A stretch of DNA of 64,000 bases from Anaerolineales bacterium (GTDB taxonomy: Bacteria > Chloroflexota > Anaerolineae > Anaerolineales > DRMV01). The stretch is from positions 48,931-112,930 of the forward strand of contig JALVVL010000010.1 in the NCBI GenBank assembly GCA_027023425.1. Direction: 5' to 3'. This document shows, one piece after another, positions 33,911-61,714 of this stretch; the stretch's first letter is position 1, and the number at the start of each line of letters is the position of its first letter. A model generated the notes under the pieces. That model was not told the DNA's origin. It worked only from the letters and a program-made list of their open reading frames with translations, and made no database searches. The translations under genes and the position numbers were made by a program.

Positions 33911-34726
33911 ATGGCACTCAAAGGAAACTTGCGCGACTTTTCTGTTACGCAGCTGCTAAACCTGATACACTTGGCGCACAAAACCGGCGCCTTGAAGGTA
34001 AAAGGTGAAACCACCGCGAACGCTTACTTCCGCGAAGGCAAACTTGCTTATGCACATATGGATAACGAACCCGATGATTTAGCCACAATTCTCTATCGGG
34101 ATAAAAAAATAACCCGCGCTCAATACCGCACCCTCAAAAGTCGCGCCGGCCACCTCAACGACAAAGCACTGGGCTTGCTCCTCATCAATGCTGGCTATTT
34201 GACCCAAGAAGACATACTCGCCAGCGTGCAATCCCATTACCTGAGCACAATGCAGCGCCTATTTGCATGGGCTGAAGGTCTATTTGTGTTTGACGCTCAC
34301 GCCGCACCGCCAAACGGCAAAATCCTCACCAAAATAGGGCTGGGCAATCTGATAATAGAAGGCGCGCGCCGCCTGCGTGAATGGGAAAAACTGCAAGACG
34401 AAATTCCGAATCTGGATATGGCGCTCAAATTCACCGAGCGCCCCGGCACAGACCTGCGAAAGTTGAACCTGAGCGTAGAAGAATGGCGAGTAGTATCTTA
34501 CATAAACCCGCGCAACACCATCCGCCAAATAGCGCGCGCCACAAAAATGACCGATTTGGAAATTAGGCGCATAGTGTACAGCCTCCTCCAAGCCGGGCTG
34601 GTTGAATTGGTAAGGCCAGAAGGCCAAACCGTTCCCAAACCAATTCACACTGCCTTAGAAGGCAAAAGTAAAGAAGAACAAAAGTCCCTCGTCAACCGGC
34701 TCATTGCACGAATACGCGGGTTATAG
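33911..34726 (+). CDS. DUF4388 (PATAN-type) domain protein
   Basis: 271 aa. The N-terminal 110 residues match the DUF4388 pattern: MALKGNLRDFSVTQLLNLIH, then TGALKVKGE and AYFREGKLAYAHMDN. A central part with a second helical segment follows (LLINAGYLTQEDILASVQSH, resembling the type IV pilus assembly PilZ/PilB N-domain style). The C-terminal part (about 185-240) looks like a winged helix (TIRQIARATKMTDLEIRRIVYSLLQAGLVEL). DUF4388 proteins often accompany small GTPases and two-component genes, as here. Molecular role unknown. First gene of the cluster. Confidence 0.82.
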   Translation: MALKGNLRDFSVTQLLNLIHLAHKTGALKVKGETTANAYFREGKLAYAHMDNEPDDLATILYRDKKITRAQYRTLKSRAGHLNDKALGLLLINAGYLTQEDILASVQSHYLSTMQRLFAWAEGLFVFDAHAAPPNGKILTKIGLGNLIIEGARRLREWEKLQDEIPNLDMALKFTERPGTDLRKLNLSVEEWRVVSYINPRNTIRQIARATKMTDLEIRRIVYSLLQAGLVELVRPEGQTVPKPIHTALEGKSKEEQKSLVNRLIARIRGL

Positions 34727-34759: not shown

Positions 34760-35302
34760 ATGCAAACAGTAAAAATCGTGGTAACAGGCCCCTTCAATTC
34801 TGGCAAATCGGCATTCATCCAAAGCGTTAGCGAAATAGATGTAGTATCCACCGAGCGCAAAATCACCTCTGAGGCCGAAAAAATAAAAAACACCACCACA
34901 GTAGCAATGGATTTTGGCCGCATTACAGTTGACGAAGACCTTGTGCTCTACCTGTTCGGCACCCCCGGCCAACGCCGCTTTGACTTCATGTGGGAAATCC
35001 TTTCGGAAGGCATGTTGGGGTTCATAGTAATGGTAGATAGCACCCGCCCCGAAACCTTCCGCGAAGCCCGCAGCATACTTGAAACTTTCCGCGCCTATGC
35101 TCCAACACCCTATGTGGTAGCCGCCAACAAGCAAGATTTGGAAGACGCATGGGACGTGGAAGATATGCGAATCGCCTTACGCCTCCCCGACAATGTAAAA
35201 ATCCTACCCTGCGTAGCAACCGACAAAGAATCGGTCAAAAAAGTCTTGCTGGAACTCCTGTTCAGCATCTTAGAAGAAGTAGAGAAAAACTCATCCCAAT
35301 AA
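34760..35302 (+). CDS. Small Ras/Arf-like GTPase
   Basis: 180 aa. P-loop TGPFNSGKSAF (residues 9-19), switch II region GTPGQRRFDF (near 71) and base-recognition NKQD (near 121). It belongs to the prokaryotic small GTPases related to MglA and the conservon CvnD proteins, which act as nucleotide-dependent switches with a roadblock or similar regulator. The usual Asp before the switch II PGQ reads Gly (FGTPGQ). No roadblock gene was recognised nearby; the adjacent DUF4388 protein is the candidate partner (inference). It starts 33 bp after that gene and 16 bp before an alpha/beta hydrolase. Confidence 0.88.
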   Translation: MQTVKIVVTGPFNSGKSAFIQSVSEIDVVSTERKITSEAEKIKNTTTVAMDFGRITVDEDLVLYLFGTPGQRRFDFMWEILSEGMLGFIVMVDSTRPETFREARSILETFRAYAPTPYVVAANKQDLEDAWDVEDMRIALRLPDNVKILPCVATDKESVKKVLLELLFSILEEVEKNSSQ

Positions 35303-35318
35303 AACACAGGGCAGAACC

Positions 35319-36146
35319 GTGTCCTCAATTACAACCGACCAAGGCGTAGTGCACTACGAAGTTTTCGGCCGCGGCAAGCCGGTTATCTTGCTGCATGGCT
35401 GGTTAGGCTCATGGGGAGTTTGGCAAGAAACCATGACCTACCTCGGCCAGTTTTACCGCACCTACGCCATAGACTTTTGGGGGTTTGGAGAATCGGGCAA
35501 AAAGCGAGAATCCTACGCCGTAAACGACTTTGTGAGCCTTGTAGATCAATTCATGGAACGGCTCGGCATCCCAAGCGCACCACTTGTAGGCCACAGCATG
35601 GGCGGAACGGTCGCGCTAAGTGTAGCGATCAAATACCCCCACAGAGTGCATCAAGTAGTGGTGATCGGCTCGCCAATAACCGGCTCCTCACTTGCACTCG
35701 CACTAAAACTGGCTGGATACAAACCGATAGCATTCATGGTATACAAAAACATGGGCTTGCTCAAACTGGGGCTGAAGATTACAGCCCCGTTGATAAGCGA
35801 AGACCCACGCTGGTCGCAAATGATAAATCGCGATCTTTCCCAAACCACACTGGATTCATTCCTACAAAGCATCTCTACTTTGCGCAACACCGACCTGCGC
35901 CCAATGCTAAAGAAAATTCAAGTACCCACAATGGGCATGTACGGCGATAAAGATGTGATAGTAGACCCCAACCAGTGGATAACCCTAAAGCAAAACTTGC
36001 CGCACGCAATTATCAAAAGGTACAGCAACGCCGGCCACTTTGTAATGCTGGACGAACCTGAAAAGTTCCGCGCCGACCTAAAACAATTTCTGTACGCCGA
36101 CAAGGAAAAACTGCTCTCAATACCTCACATCTTTTACGATGAATGA
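35319..36146 (+). CDS. Alpha/beta hydrolase (first paralogue)
   Basis: 275 aa, GTG start. Oxyanion motif LLHGWLGSWGVW (near 25), nucleophile elbow VGHSMGGTVA (Ser near 95), acid loop MYGDKDVIVD and catalytic His in NAGHFVMLDEP. All triad residues are present. Substrate unknown. It is clearly paralogous to the hydrolase at 48028-48816: both share VHYEV.GRG, LHGW.GSW and DFWGFG.S. Tightly packed between the GTPase and an unknown gene that overlaps its stop. Confidence 0.87.
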   Translation: MSSITTDQGVVHYEVFGRGKPVILLHGWLGSWGVWQETMTYLGQFYRTYAIDFWGFGESGKKRESYAVNDFVSLVDQFMERLGIPSAPLVGHSMGGTVALSVAIKYPHRVHQVVVIGSPITGSSLALALKLAGYKPIAFMVYKNMGLLKLGLKITAPLISEDPRWSQMINRDLSQTTLDSFLQSISTLRNTDLRPMLKKIQVPTMGMYGDKDVIVDPNQWITLKQNLPHAIIKRYSNAGHFVMLDEPEKFRADLKQFLYADKEKLLSIPHIFYDE

Positions 36147-36651
36147 GCCACTGCCCCAACAAAACATTCCGGCTGAAGAATTGCAACACGCCTGGCAACA
36201 AAGCCTTGCCGAAATACTCGGCGAAGCAAAAGAGGACGAAAGTTTTACCCACGCAGGCTTACTCAGCACCATAACCCGCATCAGACGAAAATACGGAGCA
36301 CAAGCGGCAGACGGCTTGCTCTTGCGGCTTGGCAGGTCTCTTGCACGGAATTTGTTACCGTGGGTATGTGCAAACACCCACGCTACAGAGCGGCTTGCAC
36401 CCAGAAGCCAAAAAATACTAAAAACTGCTCGGAGAATGGCCGAAGCCCTATCGTTCCTGCAAAATGCCGCTCCGCAAGTGACACTCAAAACCCGCTCACT
36501 TGAGGTAAAACTTCCAGCCTCCGCTTCGGAAATGGCGGCATTTTGGGCGGGGCTTTTTCAAGAAACAACATATTGGGCCAGTGGCGGCCAACTGCGGCCC
36601 ACCTTCACAGGCGCGGAGAACGGCGCGGCGGTGATACGTATTCATCTGTAG
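36139..36651 (+). CDS. Unknown conserved-looking protein in the GTPase cluster
   Basis: 170 aa. The start overlaps the hydrolase stop by 8 bp, implying translational coupling. No family could be named with confidence. A helical N-terminal half (LLSTITRIRRKYGAQAADGLLLRLGRSLARNLLPW) is followed by a mixed region with paired Trp (FWAGLFQETTYWASGG). The pattern is faintly like V4R small-molecule-binding domains, but this is a guess. No signal peptide or membrane segment. Confidence 0.7.
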   Translation: MNEPLPQQNIPAEELQHAWQQSLAEILGEAKEDESFTHAGLLSTITRIRRKYGAQAADGLLLRLGRSLARNLLPWVCANTHATERLAPRSQKILKTARRMAEALSFLQNAAPQVTLKTRSLEVKLPASASEMAAFWAGLFQETTYWASGGQLRPTFTGAENGAAVIRIHL

Positions 36652-36823: not shown

Positions 36824-38107
36824 ATGCTAAAAATTATTCTCCACGACGATAGACACATAATCCCCTTCAACGAACCGGCGCGCGATCTACGCATTCAAAA
36901 CAAGCCGCTTTGGCTCGCCCAGCGCGACGTCCTTACCCCCTACGTAGATCGCGAAATTGAAATCCGTTACGGTCAACAACTACCGCCAGTAAAGGAAGAA
37001 ACAATAGTCTATCGTGACAACCTTTTCTTTGATGAATTTTACATAAAGGAATTTTTAGAAAGGGCACAACGCCGGCAACAACCCGTACAAGCGGCCTTTT
37101 TTGCCGACGATCCGGCGTTTCGCGAGCACGCCTTGCCACTTTCTACTTCCTACACCCCTTACGGCGACCTTTATTTGGCGGATTTGTGGTACTACCCCGA
37201 AGGTACGGCCACCGATGAAGAACCTGTGCCGTTGCCAATAGACTTGCAGGCGCGCGAAATCGGCTACTATCACGTGCCAACCTACATGGCCTCCGAGGAA
37301 GGCGACTTAGTCTTTCAAGTGCCGCTGCGCGCCATGCTTGCGATAGATTCTTGGGTGCACATTTTCATAGCCGATGTTGTTTTTGGGCTTTTTGCGCGCG
37401 GAGCGCGCTTTGAAGAGCGCCTAAAAGCCGACCCTTTCTTCAAACTCAAAATACTCGCCAAAGCAATGTACGAGGGCAAACAAGTGTTGGAATCTTCCGA
37501 ACTTGTGCAAGTGGGGCACAACGTGGTAATTGACCCGACAGCGGTAATACACGGCCCTACCATAATAGGCGACAACGTAACCATCGGCGCAGGCGCGGTA
37601 ATTGACAACTGCATCATTGGCAACAATGTAAACATTTCCCAAGGATGCCAACTCATGCTCTCGGTGGTAGGGGACGGTGCGTTTCTACCATTCCGCGCCG
37701 CGCTGTTTATGACCACGTTCATGGATAACAGCATGGTAGCGCAAAACGCCTGCCTCCAAATGTGCGTGATAGGGCGCAACACTTTCATCGGCGCAGGCAC
37801 AACATTCACCGACTTCAACCTACTCTCGGCGCCGATAAAGGCTCGCGACGGCTACGGCAACCTAAAAGACTCAAACCGACCTGTGCTGGGCGGCTGTGTG
37901 GGGCACAACTGTCGTTTGGGCTCGGGGTTGATCATTTTCCCCGCGCGCACAATTGAATCGGATGTTGTGCTGGTGGCCTCCCGCAAGGAAAAAGTGATCA
38001 CCAAAGACGTAACCTACGAGCAGAGCGACCATCACCACTTGCGTGGCGGTGAACGCCATCCGCGGCTATACCCTCGCCCGGGCGAAAAATCTGAGCAGAA
38101 GTGGTAA
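36824..38107 (+). CDS. Left-handed beta-helix (GlmU-like) protein
   Basis: 427 aa. The N-terminal half (1-220) has a GlmU-like layout with ALPLSTSYTPYGDLYLADLWYYP and no clear nucleotidyltransferase signature. The C-terminal half (about 225-390) carries hexapeptide repeats (IDPTAVIHGPTIIGDNVTIGAG, VIDNCIIGNNVNISQGCQ, IGRNTFIGAGTTF, LGGCVGHNCRLGSGLIIFP) that form a left-handed beta helix, as in acyltransferases and sugar-nucleotide pyrophosphorylases. Function unknown. It follows a 172-bp gap without recognised elements, and the CACAGATT-type repeat array begins just at its stop. Confidence 0.8.
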   Translation: MLKIILHDDRHIIPFNEPARDLRIQNKPLWLAQRDVLTPYVDREIEIRYGQQLPPVKEETIVYRDNLFFDEFYIKEFLERAQRRQQPVQAAFFADDPAFREHALPLSTSYTPYGDLYLADLWYYPEGTATDEEPVPLPIDLQAREIGYYHVPTYMASEEGDLVFQVPLRAMLAIDSWVHIFIADVVFGLFARGARFEERLKADPFFKLKILAKAMYEGKQVLESSELVQVGHNVVIDPTAVIHGPTIIGDNVTIGAGAVIDNCIIGNNVNISQGCQLMLSVVGDGAFLPFRAALFMTTFMDNSMVAQNACLQMCVIGRNTFIGAGTTFTDFNLLSAPIKARDGYGNLKDSNRPVLGGCVGHNCRLGSGLIIFPARTIESDVVLVASRKEKVITKDVTYEQSDHHHLRGGERHPRLYPRPGEKSEQKW

Positions 38108-38415
38108 CGCAGAGGTTAACGCCAAGGACGCCAAGGGTAACGCAGAAACACAGAGGAAGCAGAGACGCCAAGGTCGCCAAGGATAAAAACCACAGATTAC
38201 ACAGATTAGCACAGATTTTTTCTGTGTTTTCTGTGGTGTTTCTGTGTCCTCTGTGGTTTTCTACTCCACCCACGACCCAACGACTCAACGCCCCAATCCC
38301 TCAGTACCTAAATCCCTAAACCCCTCTTTCTGTGTTCTCTGTAAATTTCTGTGTTCTCTGTGGTTTTCCTCCTCAATCGGTGCAAATCTGTGTCAATCTG
38401 TGGACAAGCCACCCG
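38108..38415. repeat. Intergenic modular repeat array
   Basis: Gene-free 321-bp gap between the beta-helix and acyl-ACP-reductase-like genes. It starts with AACGCCAAGGACGCCAAGG-type words and continues with CACAGATTACACAGATTAG, CTGTGTTTTCTGTGG and CCCTCAGTACCTAAATCCC modules, ending 13 bp before the next start codon. No promoter could be discerned inside it. Confidence 0.88.
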
Positions 38416-38428
38416 CATCCCACGGCCT

Positions 38429-39517
38429 ATGGATACGTTCGCCTTCATTATCCACCCCATCCACCCAAAGCGCGACGTAAGTCGTAAGTTCCCCCTGCTC
38501 GGCAAAATACTGACCGAGCGGCAAATAGACTTCTTTTCCACCTTCTTCCCGCCGGTCTACATTTCGGAAATCACGGGCATCACTTCTGAAAGCACAGGCA
38601 AAGAGATAAAAGGCTGGTTTGTGGCCTGCCCACTCACCCCGAGGCGCATGTTAGAACTTCCGGAAAAGACGGTTTACCGCAAGATCATCCAAACCGGACG
38701 CATGGCCGAAAAACTGGGCGCGAAAATCCTCGGGCTGGGCGCTTTCACCTCGGTGGTGGGCGATGGAGGGATAACCATTGCCAAAGCGCTGGATATTCCG
38801 GTCACCACAGGCGACTCGTACACAGTTGCAATAGCATTGGACGCGTTGCGCGAAGCCGCCCGTATCATGGAAATTGACTACCCAAACGCCAAAGCGGCAG
38901 TACTCGGTGCCACCGGCGCAATAGGGCGCGTTTCGGCCGAACTTTTGGCGCACGAGGTAGGTGAGGTATACTTAATCGGAAAGCGGCGCGCCGCGCTGGA
39001 AGAAATAAAATCCAAAATTCAAAACAGCGGCGCGCGGGCAATTCTGCACGTTAGCACCAACCCTTCCGACATAAAAAACGCCCAATTGGTGCTAACGGTA
39101 ACGAGTTCTTTGGACACAGTTGTTGAGCCGGAGCACCTACAGCCCGGCAGCGTGGTATGCGATGTGGCGCGGCCGCGTGACGTCTCAGCCCAAGTTGCGG
39201 CCGCGCGCCCCGATGTGCTGGTGATTGACGGCGGCATGGTGGAAGTTCCCGGCCGCGTGGATTTTCATTTTGACTTCGGGTTCCCGCCCGGCAAAGCATA
39301 CGCCTGCATGGCTGAAACTATGGTGCTCGCCTTGGAAGGACGCTTTGAAGATTACACCGTGGGCAAACACATTACAACCAACCAAGTCAAAGAAATTGCC
39401 CAATTAGCGGCCAAACACGGCTTCAAACTGGGCGGCTTCCGCTCTTTTGAAAAACCAATCACCGAAGAAGAAATCACCCGGATAAAGACGCAAGCCCAAA
39501 AGCGGCGTCACAGATGA
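38429..39517 (+). CDS. Long-chain acyl-[ACP] reductase-like protein (AAR family)
   Basis: 362 aa from the ATG at 38429; the track start at 38351 lies in repeat DNA. Motifs resemble cyanobacterial acyl-ACP reductase: ILGLGAFTSVVGDGG (near 100), VTTGDSYTVA, the NAD(P) site VLGATGAIGRVSAEL (near 155), VIDGGMVEVPGRVDFHFDFG and CMAETMVLALEGRFEDYTVG. AAR reduces fatty acyl-ACP or -CoA to aldehydes, the first step of alkane and alcohol synthesis. The partner aldehyde-deformylating oxygenase is not in the window, so alcohol, wax or another aldehyde use is more likely. It sits 16 bp upstream of a response regulator gene in the signalling cluster. Confidence 0.8.
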   Translation: MDTFAFIIHPIHPKRDVSRKFPLLGKILTERQIDFFSTFFPPVYISEITGITSESTGKEIKGWFVACPLTPRRMLELPEKTVYRKIIQTGRMAEKLGAKILGLGAFTSVVGDGGITIAKALDIPVTTGDSYTVAIALDALREAARIMEIDYPNAKAAVLGATGAIGRVSAELLAHEVGEVYLIGKRRAALEEIKSKIQNSGARAILHVSTNPSDIKNAQLVLTVTSSLDTVVEPEHLQPGSVVCDVARPRDVSAQVAAARPDVLVIDGGMVEVPGRVDFHFDFGFPPGKAYACMAETMVLALEGRFEDYTVGKHITTNQVKEIAQLAAKHGFKLGGFRSFEKPITEEEITRIKTQAQKRRHR

Positions 39518-39533: not shown

Positions 39534-40436
39534 ATGAGCAAAGCGCGCATATTAGTGGTTGAAGACGATGCAGACATCGCCAACATGCTGAAAATTTACT
39601 TCAGCAGCCAAGGCTACGATGTAGACATCGCCGCGCGCGGCGAAGAAGCCTTGGAAAAAACTCGGCAAAACATGCCCCACCTCATAGTGCTGGACATAAT
39701 GCTACCCGATATTGACGGCTACGAAGTTTGCCGGCGCCTGCGCACCAGCACCCGCACCAGCCACATTCCCATCATTTTCCTCACCCAAAAAGACGAGCGG
39801 AGCGACCGCTTGCAAGGGTTGGAACTCGGCGCAGACGACTACATAACCAAACCGTTTGACATTGAAGAACTGCGCCTGCGGGTGCAAAACGCTATTAGCC
39901 GCTCAGAACGCGAAAGCCTAACCGACCCGCGCTCCGGCCTGCCCGCGGGGCGGCTCATAGAAGACCACCTGAGGCAAATAATCAGCCAGCGCGGTTGGGC
40001 ACTGATGGACATTCGCATCAACTACTACGATGCCTTCCGCGAGGTGTACGGCTTTGTGGCCGCAGGCGACGTCCTCCGCTTCACAGCCATGCTCCTGAAC
40101 GAAGTGGTGGACGAAGTAGGCACGCCCGACGACTTCATCGGCCACCCGGGCGAAGAAAATTTTGTGGTGATAACCACCGAAGAGGCCGCGCCGGCTATAC
40201 GCGAGCGGCTAAAAGAACGTTTTGCCGAGGAAGTGAAAAGCCATTACACCTTCCTTGACCGAGAACAGGGCTATATCACCCTTGAAGAAAACGGCAAAGA
40301 GAAAAAAGTGCCGCTGATGAGCCTTTCAATAGGAATTGTCTCGCCTTCGCAATATGAATTTGCCGACATACGCGAAATCACCGAACTCGCGGCCGAAGCG
40401 CGCCGCAAAGATCTACCCCCTCAACTGGAACAATAA
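39534..40436 (+). CDS. Response regulator with degenerate GGDEF-like output domain
   Basis: 300 aa. Receiver domain 4-120 with acidic pocket VVEDDAD, phosphoacceptor Asp54 in LIVLDIMLPDIDG and the KPFD lysine. It is followed by a GGDEF-like domain (about 128-295: LTDPRSGLPAGRLIEDHL) in which the signature reads HPGEENFVV in place of GGDEF, so cyclase activity is doubtful. The domain may bind a nucleotide or a partner instead. AGGGAGG precedes the ATG. It lies 15 bp upstream of the giant histidine kinase, its probable cognate kinase. Confidence 0.88.
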   Translation: MSKARILVVEDDADIANMLKIYFSSQGYDVDIAARGEEALEKTRQNMPHLIVLDIMLPDIDGYEVCRRLRTSTRTSHIPIIFLTQKDERSDRLQGLELGADDYITKPFDIEELRLRVQNAISRSERESLTDPRSGLPAGRLIEDHLRQIISQRGWALMDIRINYYDAFREVYGFVAAGDVLRFTAMLLNEVVDEVGTPDDFIGHPGEENFVVITTEEAAPAIRERLKERFAEEVKSHYTFLDREQGYITLEENGKEKKVPLMSLSIGIVSPSQYEFADIREITELAAEARRKDLPPQLEQ

Positions 40437-40451
40437 CCACAACACCAAAAC

Positions 40452-43400
40452 ATGGATAGCACAAACCTGCTCGTCTTGGGCACTACATTAGCCTCTACCG
40501 GCGCTGGGCTGTGGTTAGTAGCATGGGCTCTTGCTCATGTTACAAAACCCGAGGATGCGGTCAACGTAAAAACCGCTCCTCTTACGCCCATTCCTGCGAC
40601 AGAAGAACCAAAGTCGGATAGCGCCGTTTTGATAGTGACTGAAGGGGGGAAGGTAGCATACATTGATAATCAGGCGCGCGAGATGCTCAACCTTAGCACG
40701 GCCGACTTCCCTTCATTGGACTACATACTTGAACACACCCATCCAGAGGAAGAACTGCTAAAACTGTGCAACAGCCCCGGCCAAGCCACGCTAACCATCG
40801 GCTCCACACCGGTAGAAGCAACATCTTATCCCGTGCCATATAACGGCACAAAAGCAATGTTAATAGCCCTGCGGCCATTTGGCTCTCTAAAAGAAGAAAA
40901 ATCTTCTCTGGGCACAACAATCCAAACGCTAAATTTGTTTGCCGATCTGGCGCAATCGGTCAGCAAAGAATTAGACGTAGAAAAAGTGATGCACGCTTTG
41001 GCGCGTGCAGTCAACAGGGTAATACAAACCGACGCCGTACGCATTTCACTTCTTGACGAACAGGGAATACTCCACCCATACGTTTTCCACGGCGCTCCGG
41101 GGAAAGTGTACGAAGCAAGGACAATCCCGCCGCACCCGCCCACAAGCGGGTTGGCCAAGCACGTGCTCACTACCAAAAAGCCCCTGCTGATTCCCGACGT
41201 ACAAAACCTACCCGAAAAATTTAAGGCCAACCCGCCGCATCAACCGCGCGGCACTTACCTCGGCGTGCCAATACTTATAGACGACAAAGTAATAGGCCTT
41301 ATAGAAGTCGGCAAGGCCGAACCAAACGCATTTTTTGGCATTCAACTTGAGTTTCTCACCCTATTGGCAAACATGGCTGGGGCATCGGTGCGCAACGCAC
41401 ACCTATTCACCGAAACCCAAAAACGCCTGCGCGAACTCCAAAGCCTCACCGACCTCGCCGCCGCCATAAGCGGCTCAAAAGAACTACGCACACTGGTACA
41501 AAAAATTCTGGAAAGCATCCGCCCGCTCACAAAAGCAGAAATTCTCGGCCTAATCTTATACGACGAAGCCCACCGTGACCTTGTAGCACAAAAGCCATTC
41601 CTCGGCCTGCCGGAAAGCATAATATCCAACTACCGCGGCCATGTGGCCTCAGGCTCAAAAGCCGAAGCAATTATCCAAAACAGAGAGCCAATTGTTGTTG
41701 AAGCCAACGCCCCGGAAGACGAGCGGATAAAAGCCTTGGGCTTCTCAAACTTTTACCTCGCCGCAAGCATAGATGCCACAGTGCTGTACCCCCTCCATTC
41801 AGGGCGGCAGTTTCTGGGCTATTTACAAATAGCCAACACGCCCGAGCGCCCGCCATTCACCGAAGAAGAGCGGAAAGTGGTGGCCTTGGCGGCCTCGCAA
41901 ATAGCGCCGTTATTAGAAAATGCCGTGCTCTTCCAACAAGCACGGGAGCGCGCCCGCAGAGCAGAAGCGCTGCGGCGCGTAGCAAGCCTTGCCGCCTCAT
42001 CGGCAAGCATAGATGAACTCCTTAAGTTCTCAATTTTAGAATTAGCCCACTTGCTAAATGTAAAAAAGGCGGCTGTTCGGTTATTGGATGAAGACAGTAA
42101 CCGCCTCGTACCTCACCTGCCTTCTCTCGTTGGAATTCCAAAAGAGTTAGCAAAAAAACTCGGCGAGTCTTCCGCTCAACATACGGATTTTGCCAGCACT
42201 GCCACCCATAGCGGCAAGGCGCTTATTTCCAAAAACGCCCAAACCGACGAAAACTTGCCACAAGTTTACCGTGAACTATTGCAAAATTTCCACGAAGTAA
42301 AATCTGTGCTGATAGTACCCCTAAAAACCGAGCAAGGCGGCCTCGGGGAACTTATTTTCCTGAGCGAACAAGAAGGACGGTTTGACGAAAACGATCTCAA
42401 ACTTGTAAGCGCCACAGCCGCACAAATCGCACTTTCACTTGAACGCCAACGTTTGCTTTCCGAAAGCGATATTAGCCTCCGCCGCCGTGTGGAAGAATTG
42501 AGCACGCTCGCGCATTTAAGCCGCGAACTTGGCCTGCTTTCTTCTCTAAACGAAGTGCTGCGCTACTCCCACAAACAGATGCTTGCCCTAACAAACTCAA
42601 CGTGCGGAGCAATTTTCTTGCTTCGCAAACAGCAAGGCAACTACAAAATCAAGCATCTTGTGGCCGATGAAGGCTGCCAGCGCGCCCTTTCGGCGCTGGA
42701 TAAAGAAACGTTGGAACGCGGGGAACCCCTTTCCGTGGAAGATTACAGCACCGATGTGCTCCAACCGCCCCACGAAGGAGTGCGTTCTTCGCTATCGCTT
42801 CCCCTAAAATACCAAGACAAGATTCTCGGTGTAGCGCACCTCCATTCCAACAAAGCAAGGCACTTTACAACCAAAAGCATTCACCTTGCCCGACTCATAG
42901 CCCAACACGTGGCCGTAGCCATCGGCAACGCGCAGCGCCAACAAGACCTGCTTGAAGAAAACGCCGCACTGCAAAGCAAAGCACACGCCCTCACTTTGCT
43001 GCGCAATTTCCTACGCTCCGAGCAGCCACTAAGCGACACCAAAGGCGCAATAAGCAAACTCATAAGTGCCCTTCACCAGATCACCCCCTTTGACGCCATC
43101 TGGGTGGGCGAATACACCCCAAGCAAAGGCACAATCAGCGCCATAACCTCGGTTGGCTTCCAACCCGGCGAGCCGCTCCCTTGGGATTCCCTAAGCCTGT
43201 TGCTGGAAGATGAATTCAACCGCGCGGGAGTTTATTTCATCCCGGCCGAAAAGCGACCACCGACGCCTTCTAACCTGAACCTTCCACAACCCAAAAACCC
43301 AATCCTCGGCCAAGATGAAGAAAACTCATGGCGGCAGGATGACCTATTGCTCGTGCCGCTTAGGGCTTCAAACGGACAGGTTATTGGCCTGATTTACTTC

Positions 43401-46400
43401 AACTCACCGCGCAACGGCTTGCGGCCATCCGCCACCGAGTTGGAAATCATCCGCCTGTTTGCCGAACAAATAGCGTGGCTGATGGAGGCACACCAAACCG
43501 CGCAAGCCCTGATAAAACGACAAGAGGCACTTGAAAAGCAAATAAAGCAAACCGACGAAGCACTCCGTACCGCACAAAAAGATACACCGCGCTGGATGCG
43601 CAAAGACCTACAGCAAACGATTGACCGCTACCGGCTTGGTCAACGAGCAAATCGTCTGCACAAAGGGCTCAACATCGCGGCGCTGGTAAACCAACAGCCC
43701 AGCCGCTCAGCAGTTTTAGACGCTCTTGGCACCCAATTGATAGAACAATTTGGGTTCAACTATTTGCTAATTGCCGCTCCGGCCGCCGGCACCAAAGAAG
43801 GCCTGCACCTTGAACAAGCCTTTGGCGATTTGCCCACCGACCTAAAGATAGAAATTCTGCTTGGGCAGCGCAATCCCCTTTCCGAAGTTGCACGCAAGGG
43901 CGAAGTAATCATAGAACCCGATATCCAGCGCAACAACAAATGGGCAAATTCACCGCTACTGGAGAGGCTTGAAATCAAGGGATTTGTTGCTTTCCCAATT
44001 CACACCGAACAAGCCGGGGAAGAGACAACAAACCAAAAGGTTATCAGCCATGTAGTAATGGCGGGCTCGTGCACACCTTTGCTTGAATTTTCAGAGGATG
44101 AAAGCGCGATCTTCCAACTGATAAGCCGCCAAGTAGGTATAACGCTTGACAACCTAACCATGCTGGCACGCACCGAACGGCGACTGCGCGAAGCCGCCTT
44201 GCTTTTGGAATTTAGCAGTCAACTCGGCGTTTTAGACCCAGAACGCATCCTCAACACGTTGCTCCACAGCACCCTTGGCGTCCTGCAAAACGTGCACGCC
44301 GGCTTTGTAGCGCTATGGCAACCGGAAGAAGAAATCCTAAAGCCGGTTGTGGCAACAGGCTATGCGCGTTCCGATGAAATAAAAAACATCGTCCTGCCCA
44401 AAGAAAGCCTGCCCGCAAAAGTAATGTTTGAAGGGCGCAGCAGGATAATAGACGAACTGGACTTTGCCTCCGCCTACCCATTTGACGCCGACAACCTGCT
44501 GCGTTACCGGACGGCCACGGCCGAGCGCCTGCCGGTCTCCAGCATGATGGTGCCCATACGCTCCGGCGAAAACTCGCTCGGCGTGATTGTGCTGGACAAT
44601 TTCAACACGGCTTCGGCTTTCACCGCCGAGGACGAAAAACTGGTACTTTCGCTAACCCAGCAGACGGCTTTGGCATTAGAAAACGCCCGGTTGCTCAACA
44701 CAGCCGAGCGCCGCGCCTCTCAGTTGCAAGCGCTTGCAAAAGTATCTACCAACATAACTGCCCACATCCTTTCATACGAAGAAGTGGCAAAATCGCTGCT
44801 TGACCAATTAGCCCAAGTACTGCCTTACGATCGCGGCACGCTGTGGCTGCTTGAAGGCAACCGGCTGACGGTGCATGATGCGCGTGGCTTTGAAAACGCT
44901 CAGGAAATCATCGGCATCTCCACAAATGTGGAAGACAGCGCCCTGTTTCAAGAAATGCTCAGAGACAAACGGCCTTTGGTTGTGGACGACATAACCAAAG
45001 ACCCGCGCTTCCCCCAAGCGCAACCGATACCCTACCGCTCATGGCTCGGCATCCCGCTGGTGCTCAAAGAAAAAGTGCTGGGCGTAATAGCGCTGGAAAA
45101 AGACAAAGCGCGGTTCTTCACAGCAGACTGGGTAGAAACGGCAGAAACGTTTGCCGCACAAGCCGCCGCCGCGCTTGAAAACGCCCGGCTCCACGAAGAA
45201 ACCCTCCGCCGCACCAACGAATTAGACGAACGGACGCGCAGGCTTGCTCTTGTTTACCAAGTAACTTCCAACCTCGCAACCTCTTTAGACCCCCAATACA
45301 TTGCCCGCTACACCGCTGAGCGCCTGCACGAAGCACTCGGCAAAGGCAAAGTAATAACCCTGCTGTGGCACGAAAGCAAACCTACCGTCGTCGCCGAATT
45401 CCCCGAAAGCGCTAAAACCGAAAACGCATCGGAAATCCCCGCGGAAGCACCGCTTTGGGAACACCTGCGGGAATCCGGCGGCATCTACAGAGCCAAAAAC
45501 GCACTTGACGATGAGGAATTGGCACCGTTGCACCCACTAATTGCCGCCCACAAGGCAAAAAGCGCCACCTTGGTGCCCATGATCGCAGGGCAAAGCCTGA
45601 TGGGAGTGATGGTGTTGCTGACTGGCGAAGAGGAAGAAGTAGACGCCGATGAGTTGGAACTTGTGAAGACATTGGCAAACCAAGCCGCAGTTGCCCTCCA
45701 AAACGCTCGGCTATACGAAGAGACGCGCCGATTCTCCGAAGAATTGGAGCGCCGCGTGGAAGAGCGCACAGCCGAACTTCAGCGCGAGCATCACCGCTCC
45801 CAAACCCTCCTTAAAATCATCGGCGAACTGGCCGCCAGTCTGGACTTAGACCAAGTACTAAACCGCACGCTGGCACTGCTGAACGAAAGCCTTTCGGCTG
45901 ACCACAGTAGCATTTTGCTCGCCCGCCCGGGAGAAAAAACGCTCTTCCTGCGCGCCGCCTACGGCAAATCCGGCCGGTTGCCGCTCGGCGGAAGGCCTAC
46001 CAACATCTCCGCAACCGATTCCCTCGCGGGCTGGGTCATCACGCACCGCCAGCCCATCCTGATAGGCGATTTACAAGCCGACCCACGCTGGCGAAAAGGG
46101 CTTGAAGGTGAAGAACTACAACACCGTAGCGCCATCTGCGTCCCGCTGATTTTTGGCGAAGAGGTGCTCGGCGCGCTGATGATTTTCCACGAAGAGCCCG
46201 ACCACTTCACCGAATACCATTTGGATTTGGCAATGGCAACGGCCAAACAAATGGCAATCACCATCAACCAATCGGAAATTTTCCGCTTGGTAAACGAGCA
46301 AGCGGAGCACTTGGGGCGAATGGCGCGCGCACAAGAAATTGAAGCCCGGCGGGCAAAAGCAATCCTTGAAGCAATTGCCGACGGCGTAGTGGTAACCGAC

Positions 46401-47459
46401 AAACGCAACAAAATAACCCTTTTCAACCCCTCTGCAAGCCGCATTTTAGGAATCCCGGCCGAAAAAGCCATCGGTCAGCCGCTTGCACACTTTGTAGGCT
46501 TTTTCGGCGCGGCAGGCCGGCAGTGGATGGAAACCATCCATATGTGGTCTGAAAACCCCGAAATGAGCGCCGAGGGCATAACTTACGAAGAGCAAATAGA
46601 GATGGAAGACGGGCGTGTAATTTCAGTACACCTTGCGCCGGTTTTCTCACACAACGAATTCTTGGGCACGGTTTCCGTTTTCCGCGACATCACCCACCAA
46701 GTTGAGGTTGACCGCCTGAAATCTGAATTCGTCGCCACTGTGTCACACGAACTGCGCACCCCGATGACGGCCATCAAAGGCTATGTGGACATTTTGCTAA
46801 TGGGCGCAGCCGGGCCGCTCACCGAACAACAAAGGCAATTCCTAAACACCGTCAAATCCAACACCGAGCGCCTCAACCTGTTAGTGAGCGACTTGCTTGA
46901 CATTTCGCGCATTGAAGCAGGGCATATCTCGCTTATCAAAGAAGAAATTGACCTTGGCAAACTCATCCAAGAAGTAGTTGCCGAAGTAAAGCGAATCGCC
47001 AAAGATGAAAACCGCCCCATGAATTTTGAAGTAGAAATTGCTCCTGACCTCCCTCACATCTACGCCGACCGTGAGCGCATCCGGCAAGTTGTTGAAAACT
47101 TGGTGGAAAACGCCTACCGCTACACCTCCGAAGGCGGCAAAATAACAGTGCGGGCATACCCGCTCAATGAGGCCGAAATCCAAGTGGACGTGATTGACAC
47201 CGGCATAGGGATTCCACCCGAGGAACAAGAGCGTGTCTTTGAACGTTTTTACCGAGGCGAAAACCCACTGGTAATGGCATCGGCAGGCACTGGCCTTGGC
47301 CTCTCAATTGTGAAAACATTGGTTGAAATGCACAACGGTGAGATTTGGCTCAGCAGCGAAGGAATCCCCGGCAAAGGAAGCACGTTCTCCTTCAAACTGC
47401 CGGTCAAAGGCGAAAACAATGACGAAACACAACACTATGCGCCACCATCCGAGGAGTAG
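40452..47459 (+). CDS. Giant multi-GAF sensor histidine kinase
   Basis: 2335 aa, the largest gene here. One N-terminal membrane segment (about 5-29) is followed by a PAS-like region (about 55-145). About ten consecutive GAF-type modules lie between residues 155 and 1950, each starting after a linker helix and ending in a VALQNARLYEE-like helix; one coiled segment (RRVEERTAELQREH) precedes the last. A PAS domain (about 1965-2075) follows, then HisKA with phosphorylatable His2099 in TVSHELRTP and HATPase_c with NLVENAYRY, DTGIGIPPEEQERVFERF and GTGLGLSIVKTLVE. The kinase core is intact. It is flanked by a receiver-GGDEF gene (15 bp upstream) and a lone receiver (3 bp downstream). Ligands unknown. 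Confidence 0.95.
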   Translation: MDSTNLLVLGTTLASTGAGLWLVAWALAHVTKPEDAVNVKTAPLTPIPATEEPKSDSAVLIVTEGGKVAYIDNQAREMLNLSTADFPSLDYILEHTHPEEELLKLCNSPGQATLTIGSTPVEATSYPVPYNGTKAMLIALRPFGSLKEEKSSLGTTIQTLNLFADLAQSVSKELDVEKVMHALARAVNRVIQTDAVRISLLDEQGILHPYVFHGAPGKVYEARTIPPHPPTSGLAKHVLTTKKPLLIPDVQNLPEKFKANPPHQPRGTYLGVPILIDDKVIGLIEVGKAEPNAFFGIQLEFLTLLANMAGASVRNAHLFTETQKRLRELQSLTDLAAAISGSKELRTLVQKILESIRPLTKAEILGLILYDEAHRDLVAQKPFLGLPESIISNYRGHVASGSKAEAIIQNREPIVVEANAPEDERIKALGFSNFYLAASIDATVLYPLHSGRQFLGYLQIANTPERPPFTEEERKVVALAASQIAPLLENAVLFQQARERARRAEALRRVASLAASSASIDELLKFSILELAHLLNVKKAAVRLLDEDSNRLVPHLPSLVGIPKELAKKLGESSAQHTDFASTATHSGKALISKNAQTDENLPQVYRELLQNFHEVKSVLIVPLKTEQGGLGELIFLSEQEGRFDENDLKLVSATAAQIALSLERQRLLSESDISLRRRVEELSTLAHLSRELGLLSSLNEVLRYSHKQMLALTNSTCGAIFLLRKQQGNYKIKHLVADEGCQRALSALDKETLERGEPLSVEDYSTDVLQPPHEGVRSSLSLPLKYQDKILGVAHLHSNKARHFTTKSIHLARLIAQHVAVAIGNAQRQQDLLEENAALQSKAHALTLLRNFLRSEQPLSDTKGAISKLISALHQITPFDAIWVGEYTPSKGTISAITSVGFQPGEPLPWDSLSLLLEDEFNRAGVYFIPAEKRPPTPSNLNLPQPKNPILGQDEENSWRQDDLLLVPLRASNGQVIGLIYFNSPRNGLRPSATELEIIRLFAEQIAWLMEAHQTAQALIKRQEALEKQIKQTDEALRTAQKDTPRWMRKDLQQTIDRYRLGQRANRLHKGLNIAALVNQQPSRSAVLDALGTQLIEQFGFNYLLIAAPAAGTKEGLHLEQAFGDLPTDLKIEILLGQRNPLSEVARKGEVIIEPDIQRNNKWANSPLLERLEIKGFVAFPIHTEQAGEETTNQKVISHVVMAGSCTPLLEFSEDESAIFQLISRQVGITLDNLTMLARTERRLREAALLLEFSSQLGVLDPERILNTLLHSTLGVLQNVHAGFVALWQPEEEILKPVVATGYARSDEIKNIVLPKESLPAKVMFEGRSRIIDELDFASAYPFDADNLLRYRTATAERLPVSSMMVPIRSGENSLGVIVLDNFNTASAFTAEDEKLVLSLTQQTALALENARLLNTAERRASQLQALAKVSTNITAHILSYEEVAKSLLDQLAQVLPYDRGTLWLLEGNRLTVHDARGFENAQEIIGISTNVEDSALFQEMLRDKRPLVVDDITKDPRFPQAQPIPYRSWLGIPLVLKEKVLGVIALEKDKARFFTADWVETAETFAAQAAAALENARLHEETLRRTNELDERTRRLALVYQVTSNLATSLDPQYIARYTAERLHEALGKGKVITLLWHESKPTVVAEFPESAKTENASEIPAEAPLWEHLRESGGIYRAKNALDDEELAPLHPLIAAHKAKSATLVPMIAGQSLMGVMVLLTGEEEEVDADELELVKTLANQAAVALQNARLYEETRRFSEELERRVEERTAELQREHHRSQTLLKIIGELAASLDLDQVLNRTLALLNESLSADHSSILLARPGEKTLFLRAAYGKSGRLPLGGRPTNISATDSLAGWVITHRQPILIGDLQADPRWRKGLEGEELQHRSAICVPLIFGEEVLGALMIFHEEPDHFTEYHLDLAMATAKQMAITINQSEIFRLVNEQAEHLGRMARAQEIEARRAKAILEAIADGVVVTDKRNKITLFNPSASRILGIPAEKAIGQPLAHFVGFFGAAGRQWMETIHMWSENPEMSAEGITYEEQIEMEDGRVISVHLAPVFSHNEFLGTVSVFRDITHQVEVDRLKSEFVATVSHELRTPMTAIKGYVDILLMGAAGPLTEQQRQFLNTVKSNTERLNLLVSDLLDISRIEAGHISLIKEEIDLGKLIQEVVAEVKRIAKDENRPMNFEVEIAPDLPHIYADRERIRQVVENLVENAYRYTSEGGKITVRAYPLNEAEIQVDVIDTGIGIPPEEQERVFERFYRGENPLVMASAGTGLGLSIVKTLVEMHNGEIWLSSEGIPGKGSTFSFKLPVKGENNDETQHYAPPSEE

Positions 47460-47462
47460 CAA

Positions 47463-47831
47463 ATGGCTAAAATCGTAATTGCCGAAGACGAACCCGATAT
47501 CCGCGACCTCATCACTTTCACACTGCAATTCGCGGGCCATCAAGTAATCGCCACCGCCAACGGCGTAGAAGCAGTGCAAGCAGTGGAAAAAGAGCGTCCG
47601 GATCTGGTGCTAATGGATGTGAGGATGCCCAAAATGAGCGGATATGAAGCCTGCCGCGCGTTGAAAGACAATCCGGAAACGGCCAGCGTGCCGGTAGTGT
47701 TCCTTTCTGCCAAGGGGCAAGAAAGCGAAGTGCAAGAAGGGTTGGCCGCGGGCGCAATTGCCTACATCCTCAAACCCTTTTCGCCGGACGAATTGATAAG
47801 CCGCGTTCAGGAAATTTTGCAATCGGCATAA
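47463..47831 (+). CDS. Single-domain response regulator (CheY-like)
   Basis: 122 aa, a receiver only: acidic pair IAEDEPD, phosphoacceptor Asp52 in LVLMDVRMPKMSG, Ser/Thr position VVFLSAKG and KPFSPDEL. No output domain, so it acts through protein contact or as a phosphate shuttle/sink. It starts 3 bp after the giant kinase and must be co-translated with it. A MITE-like repeat follows. Confidence 0.93.
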   Translation: MAKIVIAEDEPDIRDLITFTLQFAGHQVIATANGVEAVQAVEKERPDLVLMDVRMPKMSGYEACRALKDNPETASVPVVFLSAKGQESEVQEGLAAGAIAYILKPFSPDELISRVQEILQSA

Positions 47832-47848
47832 AACCAACGACAACACCT

Positions 47849-48003
47849 TAGGGCTTACGCAGTTACTCATAGAAACGCTCGTTTTCATGTCATGGCGAGC
47901 CGCCGTAGGCGGCGAAGCCATCCCCCAGATGATGGAGGAGACCGCTTCAGCGGTCTACGACCGCCTCGCGGCGACATGAAGGAGGAGAACTGCGTAACTC
48001 CTA
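47849..48003. mobile_element. MITE-like repeat, copy 1
   Basis: 155 bp, no ORF of its own. Imperfect terminal inverted repeats (TAGGGCTTACGCAGTTACTC against TAGGAGTTACGCAGTTCTC), flanked by CACCT on both sides, a likely 5-bp target duplication. The interior is strongly palindromic (TCATGTCATGGCGAGCCGCC against the complement of GGCGACATGA). A second copy, nearly identical over the interior, is at 61561-61714. Confidence 0.8.
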
Positions 48004-48027: not shown

Positions 48028-48816
48028 ATGAGTGCCATAATAATCCAAGACAGAATAGTACATTACGAAGTCCTCGGCCGCGGGAGGCCAGTGGTATTCC
48101 TGCACGGCTGGGTTGGCTCGTGGAGGTATTGGATTCCGGCCATGCAACACGCCTCCATGCGCTACCGTGCGTATGCCCTTGACTTTTGGGGCTTTGGCGA
48201 CAGCGATAAGGACACAAATTTCTTCGGGCTGGATTCGCAAACACACCTGCTGGCCGCCTTTCTTGAAGAACTCGGTATTGCCAAAGTGGTGCTAATAGGC
48301 CACGGTCTTGGGGCTATCGTTAGCCTAATTTTCGGCCTGCGCTACCCCCCCGCAGTAGACCGGATGATGCTTATCGGCCTGCCAAGCGATGAAAAAGCGA
48401 TAAACCCACGCCTTTTCAGCGATTCCCCTTCTAAACTGGCCGAATGGTTGCTCAAACCCAGCATAAATACAAAAGCCGCGCGATTAGAAGCCCCCAAAGC
48501 CCACCCGGAGGCAATTGCAAAAAGTGCAAAAGATTTCACCGAGCAACGCTTGTTTTCCCACATGCGGGCTATGACAATTCCAACTCTGCTGGTGCACGGG
48601 CGCAACGACCCGCTGATAAGCGCGCCGACAAGCGCTATCATGGAAACATGGCCTGAGAACGTGCACCAAATCACCTTTGAATCCTCAGGCCACTTTCCAA
48701 TGCTGGATGAGCCGAGCAAGTTCAACCGCTTGCTGACCGACTTTCTGCTTTTGCCATCCGGAGCAAGCCCTAAGCAATTGCAACTCAAGGAAGAATGGAA
48801 ACGCCGCGTGCGCTGA
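48028..48816 (+). CDS. Alpha/beta hydrolase paralogue lacking the nucleophile serine
   Basis: 262 aa. Same architecture as the hydrolase at 35319-36146 (IVHYEVLGRGRPVVFLHGWV, DFWGFGDS, SSGHFPMLDEPSKF). The nucleophile elbow reads LIGHGLGAIV: the Ser codon of the GHSMG motif is GGT (Gly). Acid (GRNDPLIS) and His residues are kept. It is therefore probably a non-catalytic pseudoenzyme acting by binding. It closes the signalling cluster, separated from the lone receiver only by the MITE-like repeat. Confidence 0.87.
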   Translation: MSAIIIQDRIVHYEVLGRGRPVVFLHGWVGSWRYWIPAMQHASMRYRAYALDFWGFGDSDKDTNFFGLDSQTHLLAAFLEELGIAKVVLIGHGLGAIVSLIFGLRYPPAVDRMMLIGLPSDEKAINPRLFSDSPSKLAEWLLKPSINTKAARLEAPKAHPEAIAKSAKDFTEQRLFSHMRAMTIPTLLVHGRNDPLISAPTSAIMETWPENVHQITFESSGHFPMLDEPSKFNRLLTDFLLLPSGASPKQLQLKEEWKRRVR

Positions 48817-51284: not shown

Positions 51285-51692
51285 TCACTTAACCTCCCAT
51301 TCAGAGATAATGCTCTGCTCCGCATGGTGCCGTTTCTGGTTCCGGATATATGCTTTCACCGTGGGCACATCCGATTTACAGATCGTGAAGGCACCGTAAG
51401 CACCCTGCCATTTGAAGAACTCGTTGGGTTTGATTTCGTGCGTCACCAAGTGCGAGGAAGCCCCTTTGACTTCTTTCACCAAACGGGCAACGGACACAGT
51501 AGGGTGCAGGCGTAGCAGCACGTGGATATGGTCCTCGGTGCCGTTGATGGCCAGCGGCTCGCATTTCAATTGGCGGCACTTGGCAGCAATGGCAGCGTAG
51601 AGCCGACTTTCCATATCCTCCGTGATCAAAGGCAGGCGATCCCAAGTTGCCCAAACCAGATGAAGGTAAAGTTGTGTGTATGGAGCACGCAT
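51285..51692 (-). CDS. IS200-like / REP-associated Y1 tyrosine transposase
   Basis: 135 aa. Y1 HUH transposase: the HUH motif EDHIHVLLRL lies near residue 54 and the catalytic Tyr in VKAYIRNQKRHH near 115. The start of the chain (YTQLYLHLVWATWDRLPLI) is typical of IS200/IS605 TnpA. The length fits a complete IS200-type enzyme. It is embedded between REP-like palindromes on both sides, which is the arrangement of RAYT domestication. No tnpB or other cargo. It appears intact. Confidence 0.9.
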   Translation of the reverse strand: MRAPYTQLYLHLVWATWDRLPLITEDMESRLYAAIAAKCRQLKCEPLAINGTEDHIHVLLRLHPTVSVARLVKEVKGASSHLVTHEIKPNEFFKWQGAYGAFTICKSDVPTVKAYIRNQKRHHAEQSIISEWEVK

Positions 51693-61560: not shown

Positions 61561-61714
61561 TAGGACTTACAAGTTGCCCGTAGAAGCGCTCGTTTTCATG
61601 TCATGGCGAGCCGCCGTAGGCGGCGAAGCCATCCCCCAGATGATGGGGAAGACCGCTTCGGCGGTCTACGACCGCCTCGCGGCGACATGAAGTAGGAGAA
61701 CTGCGTAACTCCTA
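61561..61714. mobile_element. MITE-like repeat, copy 2
   Basis: 154 bp, nearly identical over its interior to 47849-48003 (TCATGTCATGGCGAGCCGCC ... CGACCGCCTCGCGGCGACAT). The right end GAACTGCGTAACTCCTA is the same; the left end (TAGGACTTACAAGTTGCCC) has diverged. A 3-bp ACG flanks both ends, too short to prove a target duplication. Confidence 0.75.

Follow-up and report, generated by a model that had tools for sequence, protein, structure and literature searches.

A hydrolase-fold family with a degenerate nucleophile elbow is linked to a giant GAF-histidine kinase system in Chloroflexota

Results

The gene at 48028..48816 (+) in the window, which here denotes the whole 64,000-nucleotide stretch analysed from an Anaerolineales genome (2.2 Mb, 94% complete), encodes a 262-residue α/β-hydrolase-fold protein (P0001) in which the nucleophile appears to be dispensable. 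This pseudohydrolase is probably a non-catalytic subunit of a Chloroflexota two-component system, with a kinase adaptor carrying a docking tail as its likely role. Comparison of its orthologues, hereafter the tail class, shows a loss of constraint at the nucleophile, purifying selection, a conserved C-terminal tail and a near-absolute linkage to kinase and regulator genes. Whether the proteins constitute a new bacterial pseudohydrolase family, present in two Chloroflexota classes, that would act as an obligate third component of the giant GAF-kinase system and dock through a W-[KR]-R-R motif is, in our judgement, an evenly balanced question.

Loss of constraint at the nucleophile position

The window protein belongs to the α/β-hydrolase superfamily, as indicated by its match to Pfam Abhydrolase_1 (PF00561; 89.4 bits, E 3.8e-25), whereas Ndr (PF03096) scores only 25.0 bits and NCBIfam offers only below-cutoff matches for naming the family. 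In its nucleophile elbow, GHGLG (48298..48312, +), the G-x-Nu-x-G position that holds Ser (or Cys/Asp) in catalytic hydrolases is Gly93 (codon 48304-48306, +). The acid and base positions of the triad are retained as Asp194 (48607..48609, +) and His222 (48691..48693, +), which are conserved in 95% and 99% of the tail class, respectively. The earlier note had described a hydrolase whose elbow reads GHGLG and not GHSMG, which retains the acid and His and shares three motifs with another hydrolase of the cluster, P0002 (35319..36146, +). This description is borne out: VHYEVLGRG/VHYEVFGRG, LHGWVGSW/LHGWLGSW and DFWGFGDS/DFWGFGES are common to the two proteins, which are 33% identical (BLASTP, E 9e-43).

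Homologues are present in 17 of the 18 genomes of the same family, in 173/301 genomes of the order and in 165/396 of the class, usually two per genome, and a second class of the phylum has them as well; the relatives identified by name are Anaerolineae/Anaerolineales MAGs and isolates. GHGLG, Asp194 and His222 are invariant in 16 aligned same-family orthologues with 36-67% identity to the window protein, and GHGLG recurs in the isolates Levilinea saccharolytica, Anaerolinea thermolimosa and Thermanaerothrix daxensis (loci L073, L080 and L091), so the elbow is not a sequencing error.

After identical and truncated proteins were discarded, 178 tail-class proteins from Anaerolineae and the second Chloroflexota class were compared with 85 active-class (P0002-like) proteins. 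The residue at position 93 of the tail class is Gly in 140, Ser in 13, Asp in 12, Ala in 9, and Asn and Thr in 2 each; it is therefore other than Ser in 165 of 178 (93%), as opposed to none of the 85 active-class proteins, all of which carry Ser. These counts dispose of the case in which the orthologues have Ser and the Gly is a private mutation or sequencing error. The conservation of the Ser-to-Gly change, which the earlier note had proposed to check, holds in most orthologues, where the position is usually Gly, and a strict Ser-to-Gly rule is rejected because the position varies among orthologues. Within the genus g74, proteins with 88-90% identity differ at this position, two having Ser and one Asn. 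The thirteen orthologues with Ser may be active. Close homologues found in nature differ in this one residue (Ser, Asn, Gly, Asp, Ala), which provides an experimental series for studying how an enzyme becomes a signalling part.

In a tree built with the nucleophile position excluded, the tail class forms one side of a branch with an SH-aLRT of 89. Parsimony requires at least 18 residue changes at the nucleophile position across 130 tail-class rows and gives a root set of {G,S}, which leaves Gly versus Ser unsettled as the ancestral state. The median dN/dS is 0.12 for the tail class versus 0.14 for the active class, which indicates that constraint is relaxed at a single residue within a strongly selected protein rather than by decay of the gene, and which rules out a pseudogene. 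The tail class is therefore conserved under selection without a catalytic residue, as expected of a pseudoenzyme. Constraint on the nucleophile is lost while purifying selection stays strong, and in both classes the gene keeps its place next to the giant sensor kinase, which suggests that a hydrolase-fold protein has been repurposed as a signalling part and has not decayed.

A conserved C-terminal tail

The tail-class proteins share a C-terminal ending, L-x-L-[KR]-[ED]-E-W-[KR]-R-R-x-R (in short, L-x-LKEEWKRRVR), which in the window protein reads LQLKEEWKRRVR (codons at 48778..48813, +). Among 176 aligned tail-class proteins, Trp257 and Arg259 are universal (100%) and Arg260 reaches 99%, so the Trp and Arg residues of the tail are better conserved than the nucleophile position; no such tail exists in the active paralogue class. 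The second-class proteins keep W-R-R-R-V and run on past it, for example with EWRRRVNQREYL, which indicates that the motif, and not the chain end, is what is conserved.

The AF2 model of the pseudohydrolase, computed with 99 sequences as input, is confident overall (pLDDT 94.9, pTM 0.92), and the pLDDT of residues 250-262 falls to 52-69, with the tail undocked from the confident body. As the tail is highly conserved yet unpacked on its own protein, it is best read from the model as a putative docking motif, although the low pLDDT could alternatively reflect a merely flexible end.

Linkage to the kinase gene cluster

In Anaerolineae, the cluster runs in the order DUF4388 protein (33911..34726), small Ras/MglA-like GTPase (34760..35302), active hydrolase, hexapeptide (left-handed β-helix) protein HEX (36824..38107), an optional acyl-ACP reductase/PigE-like protein (AAR; 38351..39517; NCBIfam AcACP_reductase, 111 bits, below the cutoff), a response regulator whose GGDEF-like domain is degenerate (RRGG; 39534..40436), giant GAF-histidine kinase (40452..47459), single-domain response regulator (47463..47831) and pseudohydrolase; the coordinates are those of the window, where all of these genes lie on the + strand. 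The DUF4388 protein and the GTPase are assigned by Pfam and by their conserved neighbourhood, RRGG, which belongs to the conserved core, by Pfam and its neighbourhoods, and the single-domain regulator by Pfam Response_reg. The kinase consists of 2335 residues with approximately nine GAF domains, a PAS domain, HisKA and HATPase, and its orthologues are neighbours of the pseudohydrolase elsewhere. We found no paper on this Chloroflexota cluster or on a Chloroflexus kinase-hydrolase system in the open-access literature searched, and the pseudohydrolase offers a defined entry into this regulatory cluster conserved in Anaerolineae and the second class.

Directly upstream of the 178 tail-class genes lies a response regulator in 170, the kinase in 6 and a GGDEF-like regulator in 1, the remaining copy being at a locus edge. 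The median gap between the regulator and the pseudohydrolase is 15 bp. The regulator is missing in 6 of the second-class loci examined, and in 5 of these the kinase gene runs 4 bp into the pseudohydrolase gene, so that stop and start overlap. Since the second-class copies without a regulator keep the tail, the kinase rather than the regulator is indicated as the partner.

HEX co-occurs with the pseudohydrolase. In a hand count from match tables (cut at E ~1e-58; raw genome counts that ignore kinship), both are present in 154 genomes of the order, the pseudohydrolase only in 6 (mostly fragmented MAGs), HEX only in 3 and neither in 138, so that the two occur together in 154 of the 163 genomes holding either. 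A Rosetta-stone search for fusions of the pseudohydrolase with the kinase or regulator was negative: the long open reading frames are cap-region insertions. Separately, the Levilinea saccharolytica contig NZ_LGCM01000042 (L073, L076) apparently carries the entire cluster twice, in inverted orientation, and both copies match with the same scores.

Based on this arrangement, HEX, RRGG, the giant kinase, the response regulator and the pseudohydrolase would be members of one system. In the most probable mechanism, the rigid α/β-hydrolase fold would bind the kinase in the manner of an adaptor, with the docking peptide being the invariant W-[KR]-R-R tail, whose partner is presumably also the kinase. 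The adaptor would tune the output or localisation of the kinase and might affect phosphorylation.

Adaptor or ligand receptor

Some features of the sequences count against the adaptor model. The retention of Asp194 and His222 is more than a pure scaffold needs, the pocket-facing SWRYW is nearly invariant, and the thirteen orthologues with Ser could be enzymes. Asp194, His222 and SWRYW belong to a wider conserved set, as the pocket/oxyanion-loop and elbow motifs HGW.GSWRYW, GH.LG and HFPML are maintained in the tail class and leave room for ligand binding. The strongest rival, which we nevertheless consider unlikely, is a receptor of the kind to which the earlier note pointed by analogy: a small molecule, perhaps the substrate or product of P0002 or an acyl compound linked to AAR, would occupy the former active site of the dead fold, which would signal to the kinase. 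The conserved pocket motifs together with Asp and His, and the location of P0002 and AAR within the same cluster, favour such a receptor, whereas the second class, in which the active paralogue sits apart, speaks against it.

The cap argues in the other direction. In one lineage group (L246-L249, L255-L259), a disordered low-complexity insert of 80-310 residues, rich in Pro/Ser/Thr, follows strand 6 and precedes strand 7 where other members have the cap, while the core and the tail are kept. A protein that closes over a ligand is not expected to tolerate the loss of its cap, so an adaptor fits better than a receptor. Both models are possible, and the replacement of the cap favours the adaptor.

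A foldseek comparison of the AF2 model matches PDB hydrolases with TM values of 0.7-0.8, the closest being esterases and meta-cleavage hydrolases; the strigolactone and karrikin receptors appear (D14, HTL5) only among equals, and esterases rank as high or higher. The α/β-hydrolase fold is likewise reused for signalling in D14/KAI2, but these receptors keep the Ser-His-Asp triad, whereas the pseudohydrolase lacks the nucleophile and is no closer to them than to ordinary esterases. To our knowledge, the dead α/β-hydrolases of signalling are mainly eukaryotic.

The RsbQ-RsbP and RsbQ-PAS modules of Bacillus subtilis and other bacteria, in which a small α/β-hydrolase is likewise encoded beside a multidomain sensor, are the nearest functional precedent. 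RsbQ pairs with an N-terminal PAS domain, with a histidine kinase at the end of some RsbQ-PAS modules (PMC3183031), which lends the receptor a precedent for an α/β-hydrolase beside a PAS-containing kinase. However, RsbQ needs its intact Ser-Asp-His triad for signalling (PMC3183031), whereas in the tail class the Ser is lost in 93% and a conserved C-terminal tail is present. Additionally, the PAS domain of the giant kinase sits near the C-terminus, and its first 187 residues have no Pfam match, so an N-terminal PAS of the RsbQ type is not apparent there, although a divergent PAS is possible. The likeness to hormone or strigolactone receptors that the earlier note had drawn is thus weak, given the triad requirement of RsbQ, the equal or greater closeness of generic esterases and the lineage in which the pocket-closing cap has been lost.

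For the non-enzymatic use of the fold, the nearest precedent is NDRG, a eukaryotic α/β-hydrolase fold turned to signalling and protein interaction in which all triad residues are replaced and the pocket is blocked (PMC7022630). The pseudohydrolase is not an NDRG member: it retains Asp and His, and its gene is part of a bacterial two-component cluster. In contrast to RsbQ, which needs its active site, a whole bacterial family has here shed the need for a nucleophile but kept its place next to a multi-GAF histidine kinase.

Retention of His222 and Asp194 could also mean a non-classical enzyme, in which Asp-His without Ser performs a base-only reaction such as that of a lyase or a cofactor-free oxidation, or in which Asp, present at the elbow of 12 orthologues, is the nucleophile of the GHDLG sublineage in the manner of dehalogenases. 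We regard this as very improbable, because the residue at the nucleophile position (G, D, S, A, N or T) has changed at least 18 times, Asn or Ser frequently replaces the acid in the GHDLG group, and the folded cap is absent in one lineage. In a GHDLG-elbow sublineage (L141, L167, L168, L180, L235), Asn stands at the acid position, so that two triad positions are altered together.

The active paralogue

The P0002 class is the sister group of the pseudohydrolase and has the same motifs, but it differs in its GHS[MTF]G elbow (85/85), a longer helical cap, the missing W-R-R tail and a linkage to the GTPase-DUF4388 module, with the GTPase directly upstream of 70 of the 85 active-class genes. The paralogues usually occupy the same cluster in Anaerolineae, approximately 12 kb apart, whereas at the second-class loci (L266-L277) the kinase has the dead gene beside it and the GHSMG paralogue lies elsewhere. 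This arrangement and the immediate neighbours assign the dead gene to the kinase and the active one to the GTPase module. A heteromeric hydrolase with the dead protein as regulatory subunit of P0002 is the least probable of the rivals, since the usual sharing of a cluster in Anaerolineae is offset by the distance between the genes in the second class and by their different neighbours (regulator/kinase versus GTPase).

Of the picture drawn in the earlier note, the catalytically degenerate hydrolase locked to a two-component signalling cluster stands, and the active and dead paralogues as one functional unit must be given up, the second-class arrangement and the differing neighbours ruling out such a natural pair. 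A 170-residue protein, whose coding region at 36139-36651 overlaps the last part of the active hydrolase gene, has no convincing Pfam match. In one genome of another family, f81 (L284), the stretch examined contains the DUF4388, GTPase and hexapeptide genes together with a gene for a GHSTG hydrolase but lacks the kinase-pseudohydrolase portion.

Mobile elements near the gene

A MITE-like repeat (47849..48003; approximately 154 bp), which has terminal inverted repeats of 16 nt and at least 40 copies in the genome and is no part of the system, sits between the response regulator and pseudohydrolase genes. Its insertion accounts for the 196-bp gap between these two genes in the window. A further core copy of the element begins near 61610, and an IS200-like Y1 transposase gene (51285-51692, -) is a possible source of mobility in the region.
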